Origin: Pricia antarctica
GTDB lineage: Bacteria; Bacteroidota; Bacteroidia; Flavobacteriales; Flavobacteriaceae
Assembly: GCA_011050085.1 (NCBI GenBank)
Contig: DRGL01000022.1
Coordinates: forward strand, 1 to 64,000
Reading direction: 5' to 3'
DNA: 64,000 nt
Shown here: piece by piece, positions 6,481-11,903 of the stretch
Position numbering within the stretch: position 1 is the first letter of the stretch
Layout of the letters: every line of letters begins with the position of its first letter
The notes under the pieces: generated by a model
The model's input: only the letters and a program-made list of their open reading frames with translations
Told to the model about the DNA's origin: nothing
The model's database searches: none
Program-made: the position numbers and the translations under genes

Positions 6481-8271
6481 CTAAAGCTTAAAGTTCAGCC
6501 CACTATAAACGCCAATCGAAAAAGGTCGAAAGTTGCCGGAGACATTAGAAAATGTGTTCAGTTGATATTTAAATACCGGCTCTATATTCAGTTGTATTTT
6601 GGGCGTAAATTTATAGTTGACACCAAAACCGATATTGGTACTAAAATTAATATCATTCAAGTTTCGGGCCTCACCGATTTCCGTGGTCAGCTCACCTGAG
6701 CTGAGGCTTATTGAATTATTCGTTAGAAACAAAGAACTGATACCACCGACCACATTTATACCAAACCTACTATCAAGCAACGCATAATCAAGTTCCAAGG
6801 GTACTTCGAGGTATCCGAACTGCTGTAAAACAGTACCATCGCGTAAGTCAGTCATGTTGTTGACCTCTGGGGAAAAACTCTCTGGAGACCCCGAATCCGA
6901 GACAGAATTGTTCAAGGCCAAATTCTGCGCACCGCCGTCATAAACAATATTCTGTAACCCCCTGCTATTCGATGCCGCCAATGTTGGCGAGAACGCTACA
7001 TTATCGGTGTTGTAGCCATACTCGGTTTTATGAATGCCTGATCGCACACTCAACCTATTAGACACGGCATAAGCTATCGATAGCCCATAACTCATATTCG
7101 TACTGCCCGATTTAGCATTCGGGGAAAAACCTGGGTCAATGGGCGACCCTTCTCCTAACGCATCAAAATAAACTGGGGCCACGTTCGGGCCACCAGACCA
7201 CCGGTTAGTTGACGCTTCCGCTAGCTCTTCTTCCTCATTCTGCGCCTCGACTGCCTCAAAGATTGATTTTTTATTATTTGTCACTAGAGTGTCTTTTGCC
7301 TGTTCATCTTTCTCAATCTGAGTACTTTGGGCAATCGCCGTATCCGAAACTTCGGAAGCTCTATTGTCATTTTCATGACTTTTTACAACGGCATCTTTAG
7401 TTTTACTGTTTTCATCGGCTTGTAAAGTATTAGTGTTTTTCGAATTCTCAGCATCAAATGTAACAATGGCCTTATTAGGGTCTTTATAAAGACTAGGATT
7501 ATTACTATCAGACTCAGACGTATTGCTATCGTCCATACTACTGCGTTTCAAATTGTTGGTTGCCAATTGAATTTTTTCAGGAGCATGATTTTCTCCATTT
7601 TTATCAATGTCGAAGTCTCTTTCGACGCTGCCATTTGATGATACCCTATCACTTTCTCTGACGTCGGTATCCAATGGTATATTCGGTAAGGTTTTGTTTT
7701 TGGCGCTTCGATTAACATACTCTTCGGAACTATCTTGGCTTCCGTTTTTACTACTTGTCAATTCATTTCTACTTTTTTCTTGTATTTGTAAAGTGTTCTT
7801 TTGATTGCTCCTTTTGTCTTTATTGGAACTATATATATCATCCGAGTTTTCCGAATCGCCTACCGCTCCCTGATCAGTAATAGAATGGCCTTCGGCATCA
7901 TTGTCAACATCCTTCTTATCAGTGTTGCTTACCACTGGATTTTCTGAAGACTCATTAATTTCTAAAGCATTTTTTTGAACTTGCTCTACATCGGTTTCGG
8001 CACCATCTTGTTTTCCCTTTGTAGTATTTGTCTTTTCGGTGTCTGTAATTGTTGACGGTATTTTATCAGGCTTGTTTAAGGAGTAGAAAGAAATTAATGC
8101 AATGGCCAATACTGCAGCTACACCCCCCAATTGCCACCATAGAGGAATTATTCGCCTTTTTCGTTTTTTATCAAGCGAATTTTCGATATCCCTCCAGATC
8201 TTTTCATCGGGTATTTCCCGAAAGCTCTTGAACTTTTCCCGAAAGAGTTCGTCTATATTTTTCTTGTCCAT
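6481..8271 (-). CDS. Anti-sigma-like / outer-membrane beta-barrel fusion (Dma-type candidate)
   Basis: Protein of 596 residues with an unusual layout. Residues 1-40 are charged and cytoplasmic (MDKKNIDELFREKFKSF, IWRDIENSLDKKRKRR), like the short sigma-binding segment of Bacteroidota anti-sigma factors. Residues about 44-65 form one transmembrane helix (WWQLGGVAAVLAIALISF). Residues 66 to about 355 are a low-complexity Ser/Asn/Asp/Glu/Lys-rich linker. The last ~235 residues look like an outer-membrane barrel with alternating strands and a GLNFKL end. The ECF sigma gene lies 32 bp upstream. As I recall, this architecture was described in Bacteroides as dual membrane-spanning anti-sigma factors (Dma). 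I infer that it senses the outer membrane and holds the sigma factor. Confidence 0.75.
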   Translation of the reverse strand: MDKKNIDELFREKFKSFREIPDEKIWRDIENSLDKKRKRRIIPLWWQLGGVAAVLAIALISFYSLNKPDKIPSTITDTEKTNTTKGKQDGAETDVEQVQKNALEINESSENPVVSNTDKKDVDNDAEGHSITDQGAVGDSENSDDIYSSNKDKRSNQKNTLQIQEKSRNELTSSKNGSQDSSEEYVNRSAKNKTLPNIPLDTDVRESDRVSSNGSVERDFDIDKNGENHAPEKIQLATNNLKRSSMDDSNTSESDSNNPSLYKDPNKAIVTFDAENSKNTNTLQADENSKTKDAVVKSHENDNRASEVSDTAIAQSTQIEKDEQAKDTLVTNNKKSIFEAVEAQNEEEELAEASTNRWSGGPNVAPVYFDALGEGSPIDPGFSPNAKSGSTNMSYGLSIAYAVSNRLSVRSGIHKTEYGYNTDNVAFSPTLAASNSRGLQNIVYDGGAQNLALNNSVSDSGSPESFSPEVNNMTDLRDGTVLQQFGYLEVPLELDYALLDSRFGINVVGGISSLFLTNNSISLSSGELTTEIGEARNLNDINFSTNIGFGVNYKFTPKIQLNIEPVFKYQLNTFSNVSGNFRPFSIGVYSGLNFKL

Positions 8272-8303
8272 ATTACTAACGACTTGGTACTTGGTCTAAT
8301 CGG

Positions 8304-8879
8304 CTATAAGCAACTTTCCATAATTATAAATAGAAGTATGCCGAGGATTGCAATATTCCGTTTCATTTCGATTTTCTCCTTTAAAATCATTCGGGCACGG
8401 GCCAGGTTTGACTTTGATGTACCTGGTGACGTTCCTAAAAGTGCTCCAATTTCCTGATGGGTATATCCGTCCAAAACATACATAGTAAAGGTCAATCGAT
8501 ATTTGTTCGGTAGTTCTTGAATATAACCCAACAACGTCTCTAAACTTATATTGGCATGGTCCGATTCAATTTCAACGTTAACCTCTTCTTCAAAATTATC
8601 GGTTACCAAATTCAAATGCTCTTCTTTACGGTATTTCTGCATCACGGTATTTACCGTTATGCGTTTGGCCCATCCTTCAAAAGATCCTTTGGCCTTAAAT
8701 TGACCGATTTTATCGTATATGGTCATGAAGCTATCGTGCAGATTGTCTTCGGCCTCCGTTCTATTGCGCGAGTATTTAAGGCAGGTGCCGAACAACATAG
8801 GGGAAAACTCCCGATATAGTTGTTCTTGCGCCTTCCTATTGCCCTGTTTGCAGCGTTCGATGAGTGGTTCGAGACTCAA
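8304..8879 (-). CDS. ECF RNA polymerase sigma factor with hydrophobic C-terminal tail
   Basis: Sigma-70 family ECF factor of 191 residues. Region 2 is seen around residues 25-95 (GTCLKYSRNRTEAEDNLHD, then FEGWAKRITVNTVMQKYRK) and region 4 at about 115-170 (LPNKYRLTFTMYVLDGYTHQEIG, SNLARARMILK). No upstream ATG exists in frame before a stop, so the start is TTG at 8879, with a -7 box 36-43 bases upstream. It sits between a lipoprotein gene and the anti-sigma/barrel fusion, so it is very likely the partner of that fusion. The last 20 residues are strongly hydrophobic (IAILGILLFII), which is unusual for an ECF factor and could tie it to the membrane. Confidence 0.9.
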   Translation of the reverse strand: MSLEPLIERCKQGNRKAQEQLYREFSPMLFGTCLKYSRNRTEAEDNLHDSFMTIYDKIGQFKAKGSFEGWAKRITVNTVMQKYRKEEHLNLVTDNFEEEVNVEIESDHANISLETLLGYIQELPNKYRLTFTMYVLDGYTHQEIGALLGTSPGTSKSNLARARMILKEKIEMKRNIAILGILLFIIMESCL

Positions 8880-8914
8880 AATTATAGGTTGGATTATGTG
8901 CAGGTCTACTACTT

Positions 8915-8922
8915 CAAATATA
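8915..8922 (-). promoter_or_regulatory. -7 element upstream of the ECF sigma gene
   Basis: The minus strand reads TATATTTG, an exact TAnnTTTG match, 36-43 bases before the TTG start. The -33 position carries only a weak TTTC. This suggests that the sigma and fusion genes have their own housekeeping promoter in the 83-bp gap after the lipoprotein gene. Confidence 0.45.
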
Positions 8923-8962
8923 ATACCAATTCAGTGTAAGAAAGTATCTGAAGGAGTAGGTT

Positions 8963-9403
8963 TTAAGGCTGATGGTTATCTCTGACAGGAACTTCGATTT
9001 CCAGAAATTTAGCCTCTCCGCTTGCATCTTCCCCAGAATAAAATTTAAAAACATAAGGTTTGGTGTACAGAACCTCAAATTGAAATGCATCCTGAACTGA
9101 GTCGTTCGCTATTGCACAATCTTCTTGATCCAATTTGATACCTATTGCAGCAACGGTTCTAATGTTTAGGGTATCGTTAAAATCGCGTCTCACGTCAAAG
9201 GTTTCTGCAAACGTACATTCATCTGGCCGCAATAATTTTACATCTATAGTATACACCCTACCTAAATCAAACGTATCAGGTAAACTTGCGCTTAGCGTTT
9301 CTAGGGTGGTGTATTCAAAATTGGTGCGGTCATCATCGAGGCTACAGGAGATCGATAGTATTGCCACTAAAATCGCACATAAAAAAATGGATATTCTTTT
9401 CAT
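8963..9403 (-). CDS. Small conserved flavobacterial lipoprotein
   Basis: Predicted lipoprotein of 146 residues. The signal sequence ends in a lipobox ILSISC with the acylated Cys at residue 20, followed by acidic SLDDD, which in Bacteroidota can direct export to the cell surface. The mature part is short and beta-rich, with two further cysteines (DECTF and EDCAI) that could form a disulfide, and ends in FLEIEVPV. I recognise the general shape of a conserved flavobacterial lipoprotein but know no function. It is transcribed towards the ECF sigma gene 83 bp downstream, so it may be part of the same envelope-stress locus. Confidence 0.75.
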   Translation of the reverse strand: MKRISIFLCAILVAILSISCSLDDDRTNFEYTTLETLSASLPDTFDLGRVYTIDVKLLRPDECTFAETFDVRRDFNDTLNIRTVAAIGIKLDQEDCAIANDSVQDAFQFEVLYTKPYVFKFYSGEDASGEAKFLEIEVPVRDNHQP

Positions 9404-9499
9404 ACTATTAGTTCTTTTTCTATTAGATGAAAGAAAGTGGGAAGGGTTGCGTTGAAAAAAATTATTTTTCTACTAATTGTTTTTAATTCTTAAACCGAA

Positions 9500-9541
9500 A
9501 TAGGCACAATACCAAAAATGGTATTGTGCCTATTATTTTTT
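9500..9541. terminator. Strong bidirectional terminator after recA
   Basis: A perfect 15-bp inverted repeat (9500-9514 with 9519-9533) around an AAAA loop, followed on the plus strand by TATTTTTT. On the minus strand it follows the recA stop (9612) by about 80 bases and would end recA transcription before the lipoprotein gene. Confidence 0.85.
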
Positions 9542-9611: not shown

Positions 9612-10637
9612 TCAGTCTTTTAACGCTCCAATGGCATCCCGAATCTTACCATCCAATTCCTCGAAGAGCTCAGGGTTGTCCAGTAAAAGGCCCTTCACTG
9701 CATCTCTACCTTGCCCGAGTTTAGTATCTCCATAGCTAAACCAAGAACCGCTCTTTTTAATGATTTCGTATTCTACTCCAAGATCTACTATTTCACCAAC
9801 CTTCGAAACGCCTTGACCGTACATAATATCGAATTCAGCCGTTCTAAAAGGAGGTGCAACCTTGTTTTTGACCACTTTCACACGTGTCTTGTTTCCTTTG
9901 ACATTACCGTCGGTATCTTTTATTTGGGTAGAACGACGAATATCTAAACGTACGGAACAGTAAAATTTTAGGGCATTACCTCCAGTAGTAGTCTCGGGAT
10001 TACCGAACATTACCCCAATTTTTTCTCGCAATTGGTTGATAAATATGACCGTACACTTTGTTTTACTGATGGATCCGGTAAGTTTACGCAGGGCTTGGGA
10101 CATTAAACGTGCGTGAAGCCCCATTTTCGAATCTCCCATCTCACCTTCAATCTCGCTTTTCGGTGTCAAAGCCGCCACGGAATCGATAACCACAATATCA
10201 ATCGCACCGGATCGGATTAGATTATCGGCTATCTCTAAAGCCTGCTCCCCGTTATCAGGTTGTGATATAATAAGGTTATCGATATCTACGCCTAAATTTT
10301 GGGCGTAGTACCGATCAAAAGCATGTTCCGCATCAATAAAGGCAGCAATACCACCTGCCTTTTGTGCTTCTGCCATAGCATGTAAGGTCAAGGTCGTTTT
10401 ACCAGATGATTCCGGACCATAAATTTCAATAACTCGGCCTCGAGGATATCCTCCAACGCCTAAGGCAATATCAAGACCAAGAGATCCTGATGGAATCGCA
10501 TCGATATCTTCCACAACACTATCACCCATTTTCATAACAGCGCCTTTACCGTAGGTTTTATCCAGCTTGTCTAAGGTCAATTTTAAGGCTTTCAATTTTG
10601 CTTCTTTTTCGGAACTCATATCTGTGGTTTTGGACAT
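9612..10637 (-). CDS. recA: Recombinase RecA
   Basis: Strand-exchange ATPase for homologous recombination and activator of the SOS response, 341 residues. Walker A is GPESSGKTT (74-82) and the Walker B region reads [14 protein letters not shown]. The L1/L2 DNA-binding loops are seen around [15 protein letters not shown] and [19 protein letters not shown]. The end [10 protein letters not shown] lacks the long acidic tail of E. coli RecA, as is usual in Bacteroidota. There is no intein. It is a single gene ending in a strong terminator. No LexA-like operator was identified in its upstream region (10638-10870). Confidence 0.98.
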
Positions 10638-10871: not shown

Positions 10872-11903
10872 ATGCAACTGTACAATACCTTAAGTGCAAA
10901 GGAAAGAAAAAAGCTAATCGAAGATGCAGGTCAAGAACGCTTGACCATTTCTTTCTACCGCTACGCACATATTCGTGACCCTCAAGAATTTCGAGACGCT
11001 CTTTTTATGCAATGGAACAGTCTTGACGTACTCGGCCGTATCTATGTCGCCAACGAAGGCATCAACGCCCAATTATCTTTACCTGCCGAAAATTTCGAAT
11101 CTTTCAAGGCGCATTTAGATACTATTTCCTTCCTAAAAAATGTACGCCTTAATATCGCCATTGAACAAGACAATCTGTCTTTTTTAAAGTTGAAGGTGAA
11201 GGTTCGGAATAAAATTGTGGCCGATGGGCTTAACGATGCCACTTTTGACGTTACCGACAAAGGTATTCATGTCGATGCTGAAGCCTTTAACGCCCTTATC
11301 GATGACCCCGATACGATTTTGGTAGATATGCGCAACCATTACGAAAGTGAAATCGGGCATTTCAAGAATGCCATTACTCCCGATGTAGATACCTTCCGCG
11401 ATTCGCTGGATAGTATTGAAAAGGATTTAGCGGATCATAAGGAAGACAAAAAATTAGTCATGTACTGTACTGGAGGCATTCGCTGCGAAAAAGCCAGTGC
11501 CTACTACAAACACAAAGGCTTTAAACAGGTCTACCAACTTGAAGGGGGTATTATCGATTATGCCCGACAAGTCGAAAAAAGGAAGCTGGAAAATAAATTC
11601 ATTGGGAAAAATTTCGTTTTTGACGATCGGCGGAGTGAACGGATTACCGAGGATGTCATTGCCCAATGCCACCAATGCGGCGATGCCTGCGACACCCATA
11701 CCAATTGCACCAATAAAGCTTGTAATCTCTTGTTCATTCAATGCGAAAACTGTGCTGCAAAGACCCAAAATTGCTGTTCGGATGCTTGTCAAGAAGTCTT
11801 CAATATGAGTTTTGAAGAACAGAAAGCTTTGCGGATGGGCAAAGGCAATAGTAATAAAATCTTTAAGAAGGGAAGGTCAAGTGTTTTGAAATTTAAAAGT
11901 TGA
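10872..11903 (+). CDS. trhO: tRNA uridine(34) hydroxylase TrhO (rhodanese family)
   Basis: Oxygen-dependent hydroxylase that makes 5-hydroxyuridine at the wobble position of tRNA (formerly UPF0176/YceA). It has 343 residues. The N-terminal acylphosphatase-like part (RIYVANEGINAQLSLP, residues 56-71) and the central rhodanese domain with active-site loop CTGGIRC (Cys199) are typical. Residues ~263-305 are rich in cysteine (CHQCGDAC, NCTNKACN, CENCAAKTQNCCSDAC), as in the long form of the family, and probably bind metal. Single gene, divergent from recA. Confidence 0.93.
   Translation: MQLYNTLSAKERKKLIEDAGQERLTISFYRYAHIRDPQEFRDALFMQWNSLDVLGRIYVANEGINAQLSLPAENFESFKAHLDTISFLKNVRLNIAIEQDNLSFLKLKVKVRNKIVADGLNDATFDVTDKGIHVDAEAFNALIDDPDTILVDMRNHYESEIGHFKNAITPDVDTFRDSLDSIEKDLADHKEDKKLVMYCTGGIRCEKASAYYKHKGFKQVYQLEGGIIDYARQVEKRKLENKFIGKNFVFDDRRSERITEDVIAQCHQCGDACDTHTNCTNKACNLLFIQCENCAAKTQNCCSDACQEVFNMSFEEQKALRMGKGNSNKIFKKGRSSVLKFKS

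Follow-up and report, generated by a model that had tools for sequence, protein, structure and literature searches.

Which signal could reach a cytoplasmic extracytoplasmic function (ECF) sigma factor through a protein predicted to span both membranes, and which genes would answer to it? The question is raised by three genes on the minus strand of the window, which is the 64,000-nucleotide stretch of DNA analysed here from the marine bacterium Pricia antarctica (contig DRGL01000022.1 of assembly GCA_011050085.1, positions 1 to 64,000), where a lipoprotein gene is followed by an ECF sigma gene and by a gene for a 596-residue protein. In the original prediction this last protein was taken to be a flavobacterial member of the dual membrane-spanning anti-sigma factors (Dma) of Bacteroides, with a barrel that reports on the state of the outer membrane (OM). 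It is proposed here, with a probability of roughly 0.7, that the locus encodes a Dma/Reo-type switch that senses OM damage or barrel assembly and drives a regulon defined by the promoter GCAACC-N15-CATC. The predicted outputs of this regulon are the operon itself, mostly small lipoproteins and two families of micropeptides.

Predicted architecture of the Dma-type protein

The open reading frame (ORF) of the 596-residue protein (6481..8271, minus strand, as for all features below unless noted otherwise) has an ATG start and lies 32 bp (8272-8303) behind the sigma gene, so that ORFs, coordinates and gap are all as originally claimed. The predicted layout of a charged start, a transmembrane (TM) helix, a disordered linker and a barrel is borne out by hydropathy and by an AlphaFold2 model built on 38 aligned sequences; this alignment, from which the loci L032, L039, L042 and L049 are left out, has 47 invariant columns. 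Residues 1-38 (8158..8271), the predicted cytoplasmic sigma-binding segment, form two helices in the model (residues 4-13 and 23-38), at a moderate predicted local distance difference test score (pLDDT) of 57-78, and a tryptophan is present at the position of Trp26 in all 26 N-termini aligned across Bacteroidota. The single inner-membrane helix follows at residues 44-65 (8077..8142), in agreement with the best 19-residue hydropathy windows, which start at residues 41-48, and the preceding KKRKRR motif would, by the positive-inside rule, keep the N-terminus in the cytoplasm. Residues 66-332 (7276..8076) have pLDDT values below 50 throughout and are presumably a disordered periplasmic tether; the composition is biased accordingly, residues 65-355 being rich in Ser, Asn, Asp, Glu, Lys and Thr, with six aromatics in 291 residues. 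When measured by our own boundary rule, the linker of the window protein has 289 residues and is the longest among the 39 measured (159-289, median 196). A short pre-barrel helix (residues 337-351, 7219..7263; KKSIFEAVEAQ...) is conserved in most of the aligned sequences and is also present in the AlphaFold2 model.

Residues 355-596 (6484..7209), ending with GVYSGLNFKL, are predicted to form an eight-stranded OM barrel. The model has eight long strands and one short strand between residues 358 and 595, with block-mean pLDDT values of 68-94, except for the loop region across residues 421-480 (37-60). The predicted template-modelling score of the whole model is low (0.41), as expected because half of the chain is disordered. 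Foldseek matches the C-terminal part to OmpA-type OM barrels, with E-values down to 7e-8, and the VIA matches are a Legionella porin (Z 18.1), an OmpA model (17.7) and NspA (17.6). When considering Pfam, OMP_b-brl is matched by the window protein below the cut-off (E 5.7e-4, 20.5 versus 28.7 bits), and OMP_b-brl_2 is matched by 33 of the 38 aligned members at E<=0.1. AlphaFold2, Foldseek and VIA concur in a confident barrel at the C-terminus, where the original prediction had placed it, and we are confident of this assignment at the level of the model. The even number of strands would place both ends of the barrel in the periplasm, as the tether requires. All four parts are also those given for the Dma proteins in the accessible text of PMC13088901.

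Conservation of the locus

A search with the sigma factor identified 71 related loci in named genomes, of which the 40 closest are L011-L050. The three-gene set is conserved in other Flavobacteriaceae when considering these close loci: the same lipoprotein family is encoded upstream of the sigma gene in 39 of the 40 loci (L049 has another lipoprotein), and a barrel protein is encoded downstream in 37; of the remaining three, L039 and L042 end at a contig edge and L049 has no such ORF before its contig ends. More broadly, a Dma homologue (E<=1e-6) is found in 165 of the 199 Flavobacteriaceae genomes sampled, and the operon lipoprotein in at least 136, a lower bound, as at most 20 candidates were scored per genome. 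The placement of the protein among the flavobacterial Dma members is thereby supported by its layout and by its neighbourhood.

Nineteen loci were examined in genomes that have a Dma homologue but no lipoprotein match. The lipoprotein model finds 0 of 19, recA, the sigma gene and the Dma gene are in order in all 19, and the acyltransferase gene that faces the Dma gene in the window is kept in 18. Because of this retained order, the recA-sigma-Dma locus looks like an old neighbour of recA, and the operon lipoprotein looks common yet dispensable. The suggestion that the lipoprotein is a third component therefore stands in part: its gene heads the operon and has a conserved promoter in front of it (39/39), but it is not obligatory, being absent from these 19 loci.

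The sigma and Dma genes overlap by four bases in L040, L041, L048, L051 and L054, which suggests coupled translation there. Distant relatives in Bacteroidota (Cyclobacteriaceae, Saprospiraceae, Chitinophagaceae and others) have a C-terminal OM protein barrel match in 10 of the 10 cases tested, counted at E<=0.05, some of them below the curated cut-off. The loci with the Dma layout carry Bacteroidota titles, except for L048, a metagenome-assembled genome (MAG) titled Bifidobacterium, which is probably misbinned. In L060, from a MAG titled Balneolaceae, the Dma N-terminus and the TM helix are present. No Dma-like ORF is seen behind the sigma matches in the Pseudomonas, Salinicola, Acidobacteriota and Alphaproteobacteria records (L076-L079, L081).

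The predicted sigma-dependent promoter

The predicted promoter of the operon, ACGCAACC-N15-CATCTA, is located at 9424..9452, with the -35-like GCAACC at 9445-9450 and the -10-like CATCT at 9425-9429. ECF promoters typically pair a short -10 box with a -35 box that contains AAC, and autoregulation is the rule for ECF factors. GCAACC-N15-CATC precedes the lipoprotein gene in 39 of 39 loci (the window and 38 others, with L028, at a contig edge, and L049 left out, and with the start in L011 set by hand), and the spacing is always 15 bp when the box letters are fixed and spacings of 12-18 are allowed. The same exact pattern occurs in one of 7800 dinucleotide shuffles of the upstream regions. The site is also present in L049, in front of its other lipoprotein, and in L054, a less closely related locus from a flavobacterium (38% sigma identity), ahead of a lipoprotein-like gene, the sigma gene and the Dma gene. 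Of the 19 lipoprotein-less loci, ten have a site of this form between recA and the sigma gene, with the last -35 base left open in the search.

In the Pricia genome itself there are nine sites at one mismatch or less, versus none in the reversed control; four of the five sites with spacer 15 precede lipoprotein genes, as compared with 0 of 14 with other spacers. The strict motif is found in 141 of the 165 Dma-positive Flavobacteriaceae genomes versus 0 of the 34 Dma-negative ones, and the reversed pattern is found in none of the 199. Outside the family there is one match (1 of 55 genomes), which equals the control level (1 of 61), and for this reason no phylum-wide promoter is claimed.

The predicted regulon

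The strict pattern occurs in 49 of 60 Flavobacteriaceae genomes, and the control gives none. The 148 sites in these 60 genomes include 117 distinct ones that were examined, most of the others being at the recA locus. At 78 of the 117 sites, an ATG-initiated ORF of at least 80 aa starts 29-130 bp from where the pattern begins; all but one of the distances lie between 38 and 75 bp, and the exception is 120 bp. A lipoprotein-like start, by a loose rule, is found in 65 of these 78 ORFs, as compared with 37 of 316 in the background (22/178 and 15/138), and after removal of nine rows of the operon family the counts are 56/69 versus 37/316 (Fisher 8e-30, a value that ignores relatedness). Among the 13 ORFs not called, several appear on inspection to encode secreted proteins, and L199 (LWSCNDDD) seems to be a lipoprotein that escaped the rule. 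When the ten proteins matching the operon model (E<=1e-3) are set aside, the other 55 lipoproteins form 24 sequence clusters, and one promoter thus appears to drive many different lipoproteins. Aspartate is the commonest residue at positions +4 (35/65) and +5 (40/65) after the lipidation cysteine, and acidic residues at these positions are also part of the surface-export signal described for Capnocytophaga (PMC5080379, accessible text).

In the own genome, six of the nine sites begin 40-62 bp before lipoprotein-like genes, these being the operon itself, ORFs of 135, 152, 154 and 172 aa (the last of them DUF5004/lipocalin-like) and a DUF4249 protein of 419 aa, in which the lipobox falls near residue 47 of the called ORF. 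Of the other sites, one lies 176 bp before a family 2 glycosyltransferase gene and two have no clear target. Similar glycosyltransferase-like ORFs (FADEI-VVDS-S-DGTYE) are seen behind the promoter in two genera, in L146 (G000:C24:120414) and L216 (G053:C4), the identity having been checked in Pfam for the L146 ORF; they recall the lipopolysaccharide (LPS) glycosyltransferase reported for the Phocaeicola vulgatus regulon discussed below.

At 39 of the 117 sites there is no nearby long ORF, and 29 of these lead to ORFs of less than 40 aa that belong to two families, as sorted by our own rules and by eye. Family 1, at 18 of the 39 sites, is a hydrophobic peptide of 28-38 aa, apparently a single-helix membrane peptide, and some members have FSC and acidic tails like minimal lipoproteins, ...LLLQFSCNDAAEPETPEDE (L152, L156, L157, L178, L180, L184, L186, L194, L196, L211, L214, L220, L222, L231, L236-L238 and L251). 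Family 2, at 11 of the 39 sites, is a 30-aa peptide beside recA with a conserved cysteine and then a DGG end (CKADGG or a variant; L150(-), L153, L162, L166, L171, L177, L235, L252, L254, L255 and L258). An inverted repeat is often seen behind the family 2 ORF, and trhO is next to it in L235, L254, L255 and L258. For three representative micropeptides, no NCBIfam match is better than E 0.08 and no Pfam match reaches E<=0.01. The possibility that such sites encode small RNAs in place of micropeptides was considered and set aside, because 29 of the 39 lead to predicted short ORFs of the two families; it is kept only for L168, L173 and L174, where promoters beside recA are followed by inverted repeats and a T run (by eye), with no evident micropeptide, and where a small RNA is possibly encoded.

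The sigma factor, the lipoprotein and the neighbouring genes

The 191-aa protein (8304..8879, TTG start) is an ECF sigma factor when considering its Pfam matches (Sigma70_r2, 4.8e-12; Sigma70_r4_2, 3.9e-14), its 71 related loci and an alignment of 25 sequences chosen by us. In the libraries searched, its matches are generic ECF models or equivalogs below their own cut-offs, with no ECF21 model among them. Its residues 174-191 (8307..8360) form a hydrophobic, clade-specific C-terminal tail, which could tether the sigma factor to the membrane. A tail of about 15-18 residues is present in the Pricia and Maribacter-type loci (the window, L011, L012, L015, L021-L023, L027-L034, L036 and L050) and absent from the Croceitalea/Eudoraea-type loci. 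Among the 28 ECF or other sigma loci examined in the own genome (two pairs overlap), there is no complete second Dma. In L087 (G000:C70) the ORF behind an ECF gene, of 245 aa, has a Dma-like N-terminus (E 3e-8) and a TM helix and overlaps the next ORF, of 420 aa; neither ORF matches a barrel family, and the pair is perhaps a split Dma relative. Another match in the own genome (E 0.0135; L010, C31) was set aside, as it looks like another type of anti-sigma factor.

The lipoprotein (8963..9403, 146 aa, lipidation site Cys20 in CSLDDD) has invariant cysteines at positions 20, 63 and 96, in an alignment from which L011 (uncertain start site), L032 (near duplicate) and, because a different gene lies upstream there, L049 and L051 were excluded, and is predicted to be a seven-stranded β-sandwich. 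The best fold matches by VIA are 5bmt (Z 7.9, rmsd 3.8, 109 aligned residues) and 3nqi (Z 6.3, rmsd 3.4, 103 aligned residues), both Bacteroidales proteins and both with Z below 8. Membership of the NigD family was considered and dropped: no NigD model is among the Pfam families matched by 38 members at E<=1, and the search for sequence relatives in the Protein Data Bank gave a single match, at E 0.38. A search of the own genome with PF17415 found nothing. In the Flavobacterium locus L049 (4217-4948), the same promoter and sigma gene are combined with a different, 243-aa lipoprotein at the head of the operon, and therefore the first gene seems exchangeable.

Upstream of the operon, recA (9612..10637, Pfam RecA 1.1e-140) is a conserved neighbour, being context rather than a component. 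Between recA and the promoter, the inverted repeat GGCACAATACCA/TGGTATTGTGCC (9502..9530, no strand assigned, read from the sequence) is possibly the recA terminator. The divergent neighbour of recA is trhO (10872-11903), encoding the tRNA uridine hydroxylase TrhO. In six relatives (L168, L235, L254, L255, L258 and L259) a regulon promoter is aimed at trhO from 254-329 bp upstream; none is seen in the window.

Proposed mechanism and alternative readings

In the proposed mechanism, the N-terminal helices of the Dma-type protein would hold the co-encoded sigma factor at the inner membrane, as suggested by the layout and by the relatives. The single chain is predicted to pass through the inner membrane and to cross the periplasm, via its disordered tether, to the barrel, which must be inserted in the OM by the barrel assembly machine (BAM). 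On OM damage or failed barrel assembly, the chain would undergo cleavage or degradation that begins in the periplasm, in the manner of regulated intramembrane proteolysis, and the sigma factor would be freed. The freed sigma factor would then read GCAACC-N15-CATC, as comparative genomics suggests, at its own lipoprotein-sigma-Dma operon and at the genes for mostly small lipoproteins with acidic, surface-export-like N-termini and for the two micropeptide families, and, in at least two genomes, for a family 2 glycosyltransferase. An M50 protease is present in the own genome, but this discriminates nothing, because all 14 of the 14 control genomes also have one. Barrel assembly or OM damage is the favoured signal for two reasons: the sensor itself is predicted to be a BAM client, and the ecfO-reo pair of P. 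vulgatus responds strongly to BcpT and Bd-A, the latter taken here to be bacteroidetocin A. In the accessible parts of the reports, no gene pair is more upregulated than ecfO-reo when BcpT or Bd-A is applied, and BamA is inhibited by bacteroidetocin A (PMC13114119, PMC9308784).

Several observations weigh against this reading. The contact between anti-sigma and sigma factor, and the induction, are proposals from layout and comparative genomics, and the link between the sigma factor and the motif is drawn from autoregulation and co-occurrence. The genomes and loci are related, and the 39 promoter loci are not independent, as many are from Maribacter. The Fisher value for co-occurrence (5e-23) is inflated by relatedness and by small genomes: the Dma-negative genomes are mostly small, with nine of the 34 reaching 2.2 Mb, none of which has the motif. 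Furthermore, the strict motif is missing from 24 of the 165 Dma-positive genomes, including one from the same genus. In the own genome, a motif with a variable gap (11-19) is unenriched (19 matches versus 17 in the control), so that only spacer 15 counts there, and one of the five sites with this spacer lies within another gene. The loose lipoprotein rule is crude, with 22/178 and 15/138 ORFs of the background called as well, and a strict lipobox passes only 16 of the 78 ORFs versus 7/178 and 1/138 in the background. Acidic N-termini are no marker of the regulon, because they are common among the background lipoproteins of the own genome (9 of 15 loosely called). Ten of the 39 sites without a long ORF lead to no micropeptide either, two of the ten being the sigma gene's own promoter, and the operon lipoprotein matches no NigD model.

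Among the alternatives, the best surviving one keeps the sigma/anti-sigma pair and makes the barrel a ligand receptor, in which the loop at about residues 425-475 binds a glycan or another molecule and pulls or reshapes the tether. This would fit the low-confidence, length-variable part of the barrel (residues 428-437 and 448-473) and the glycan sensing proposed by the authors of the Dma2 work (PMC13088901, accessible text), but a homologue in 165 of 199 genomes, beside recA in the 19 loci checked, agrees better with a general signal than with a niche ligand, and the P. vulgatus relative responds, as far as reported in the accessible text, to envelope toxins (PMC13114119, PMC9308784). We therefore regard a ligand receptor as rather unlikely. 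Still less probable is that the GCAACC-N15-CATC promoters belong to another ECF factor, the Dma operon being just one target among others. In its favour, 30 places in the own genome match Sigma70_r2, and for F. psychrophilum, with seven ECF factors, a CGT-box motif (SM6) was inferred ahead of a sigma/anti-sigma pair and a YceA rhodanese gene (PMC9723704, accessible text). Nevertheless, the strict motif is found in 0 of the 34 Dma-negative genomes, and the site adjoins the sigma gene in ten of the 19 lipoprotein-less loci. The general rule of autoregulation also speaks for the co-encoded factor. Finally, it is very improbable that the 596-aa protein is mainly a structural tether between the membranes and not an anti-sigma factor, since, even if the predicted chain could physically link both membranes and no Pfam anti-sigma domain is found in its N-terminus, it is encoded directly behind, or overlapping, the ECF gene in the loci examined, and genetic evidence reported for Dma1, Dma2 and Reo, of the same layout, is that they restrain their own sigma factors (PMC13088901, PMC13114119, PMC9308784, accessible text).

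Comparison with known systems

When the switch reading is extended to the whole family, the balance tips slightly in favour of a Flavobacteriaceae-wide OM-stress regulon under a Dma-type switch, whose output would be diverse surface lipoproteins and two undescribed micropeptide families, and not folding factors, with the effectors shielding or reshaping the surface. The Dma/Reo systems are known from gut Bacteroidales, where, according to the accessible parts of the reports, the signal and the purpose of the induced NigD lipoproteins are not understood. The flavobacterial relative, being widespread and having a defined promoter, would add a second, non-gut system for which reporters are at hand. 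If surface lipoproteins are the output in both groups despite the difference between the proteins, induced, replaceable surface lipoproteins, perhaps vesiculated, could be an ancestral Bacteroidota answer to OM attack. The micropeptides of both families would count as new effectors of envelope stress.

In the SigmaE-RseA system of E. coli, a membrane anti-sigma factor holds an ECF factor, the output is an autoregulated OM stress response, and the sensor of OM proteins is a separate protease, DegS. The flavobacterial system would share the membrane anti-sigma factor that holds an ECF factor and the autoregulated response to OM stress, but its predicted anti-sigma factor carries its own barrel and its predicted target genes are different.

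The Dma proteins have an N-terminal sigma-binding part, a TM helix, a long disordered tether and a C-terminal barrel, and loss of Dma1 raises NigD1 in Bacteroides thetaiotaomicron (PMC13088901, accessible text). The Pricia protein is like the Dma1/Das1 and Dma2/Das2 pairs of this species in its predicted four-part layout and in the ECF gene alongside, and the Dma2 operon also has three genes (PMC13088901, accessible text). Unlike these, the flavobacterial locus is beside recA, is widespread in Flavobacteriaceae, has a lipoprotein without a NigD match and has a predicted, promoter-defined regulon of lipoproteins and micropeptides.

The closest precedent is EcfO-Reo/NigD of Phocaeicola. The ecfO-reo regulon includes an LPS glycosyltransferase and three NigD surface lipoproteins, one of which has the locus tag adjacent to that of ecfO (PMC13114119, PMC9308784, accessible text). 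The EcfO-Reo systems of P. vulgatus and Bacteroides fragilis, as far as described there, resemble the flavobacterial one, as predicted, in the anti-sigma factor with an OM barrel and in the surface-lipoprotein and glycosyltransferase targets; they differ in that the flavobacterial lipoprotein matches no NigD model and that no micropeptides are mentioned for EcfO-Reo in the accessible text. Among the papers listed in full-text searches of open-licence literature, none was seen to describe the flavobacterial system beside recA, the promoter or the micropeptides, and absence from print is not claimed. In summary, the Dma/Reo layout of the anti-sigma factor and the NigD lipoprotein output are already known from the accessible reports, whereas the recA-linked flavobacterial system, the lipoprotein heading its operon, the GCAACC-N15-CATC promoter, the predicted regulon and the putative micropeptides appear to be new.

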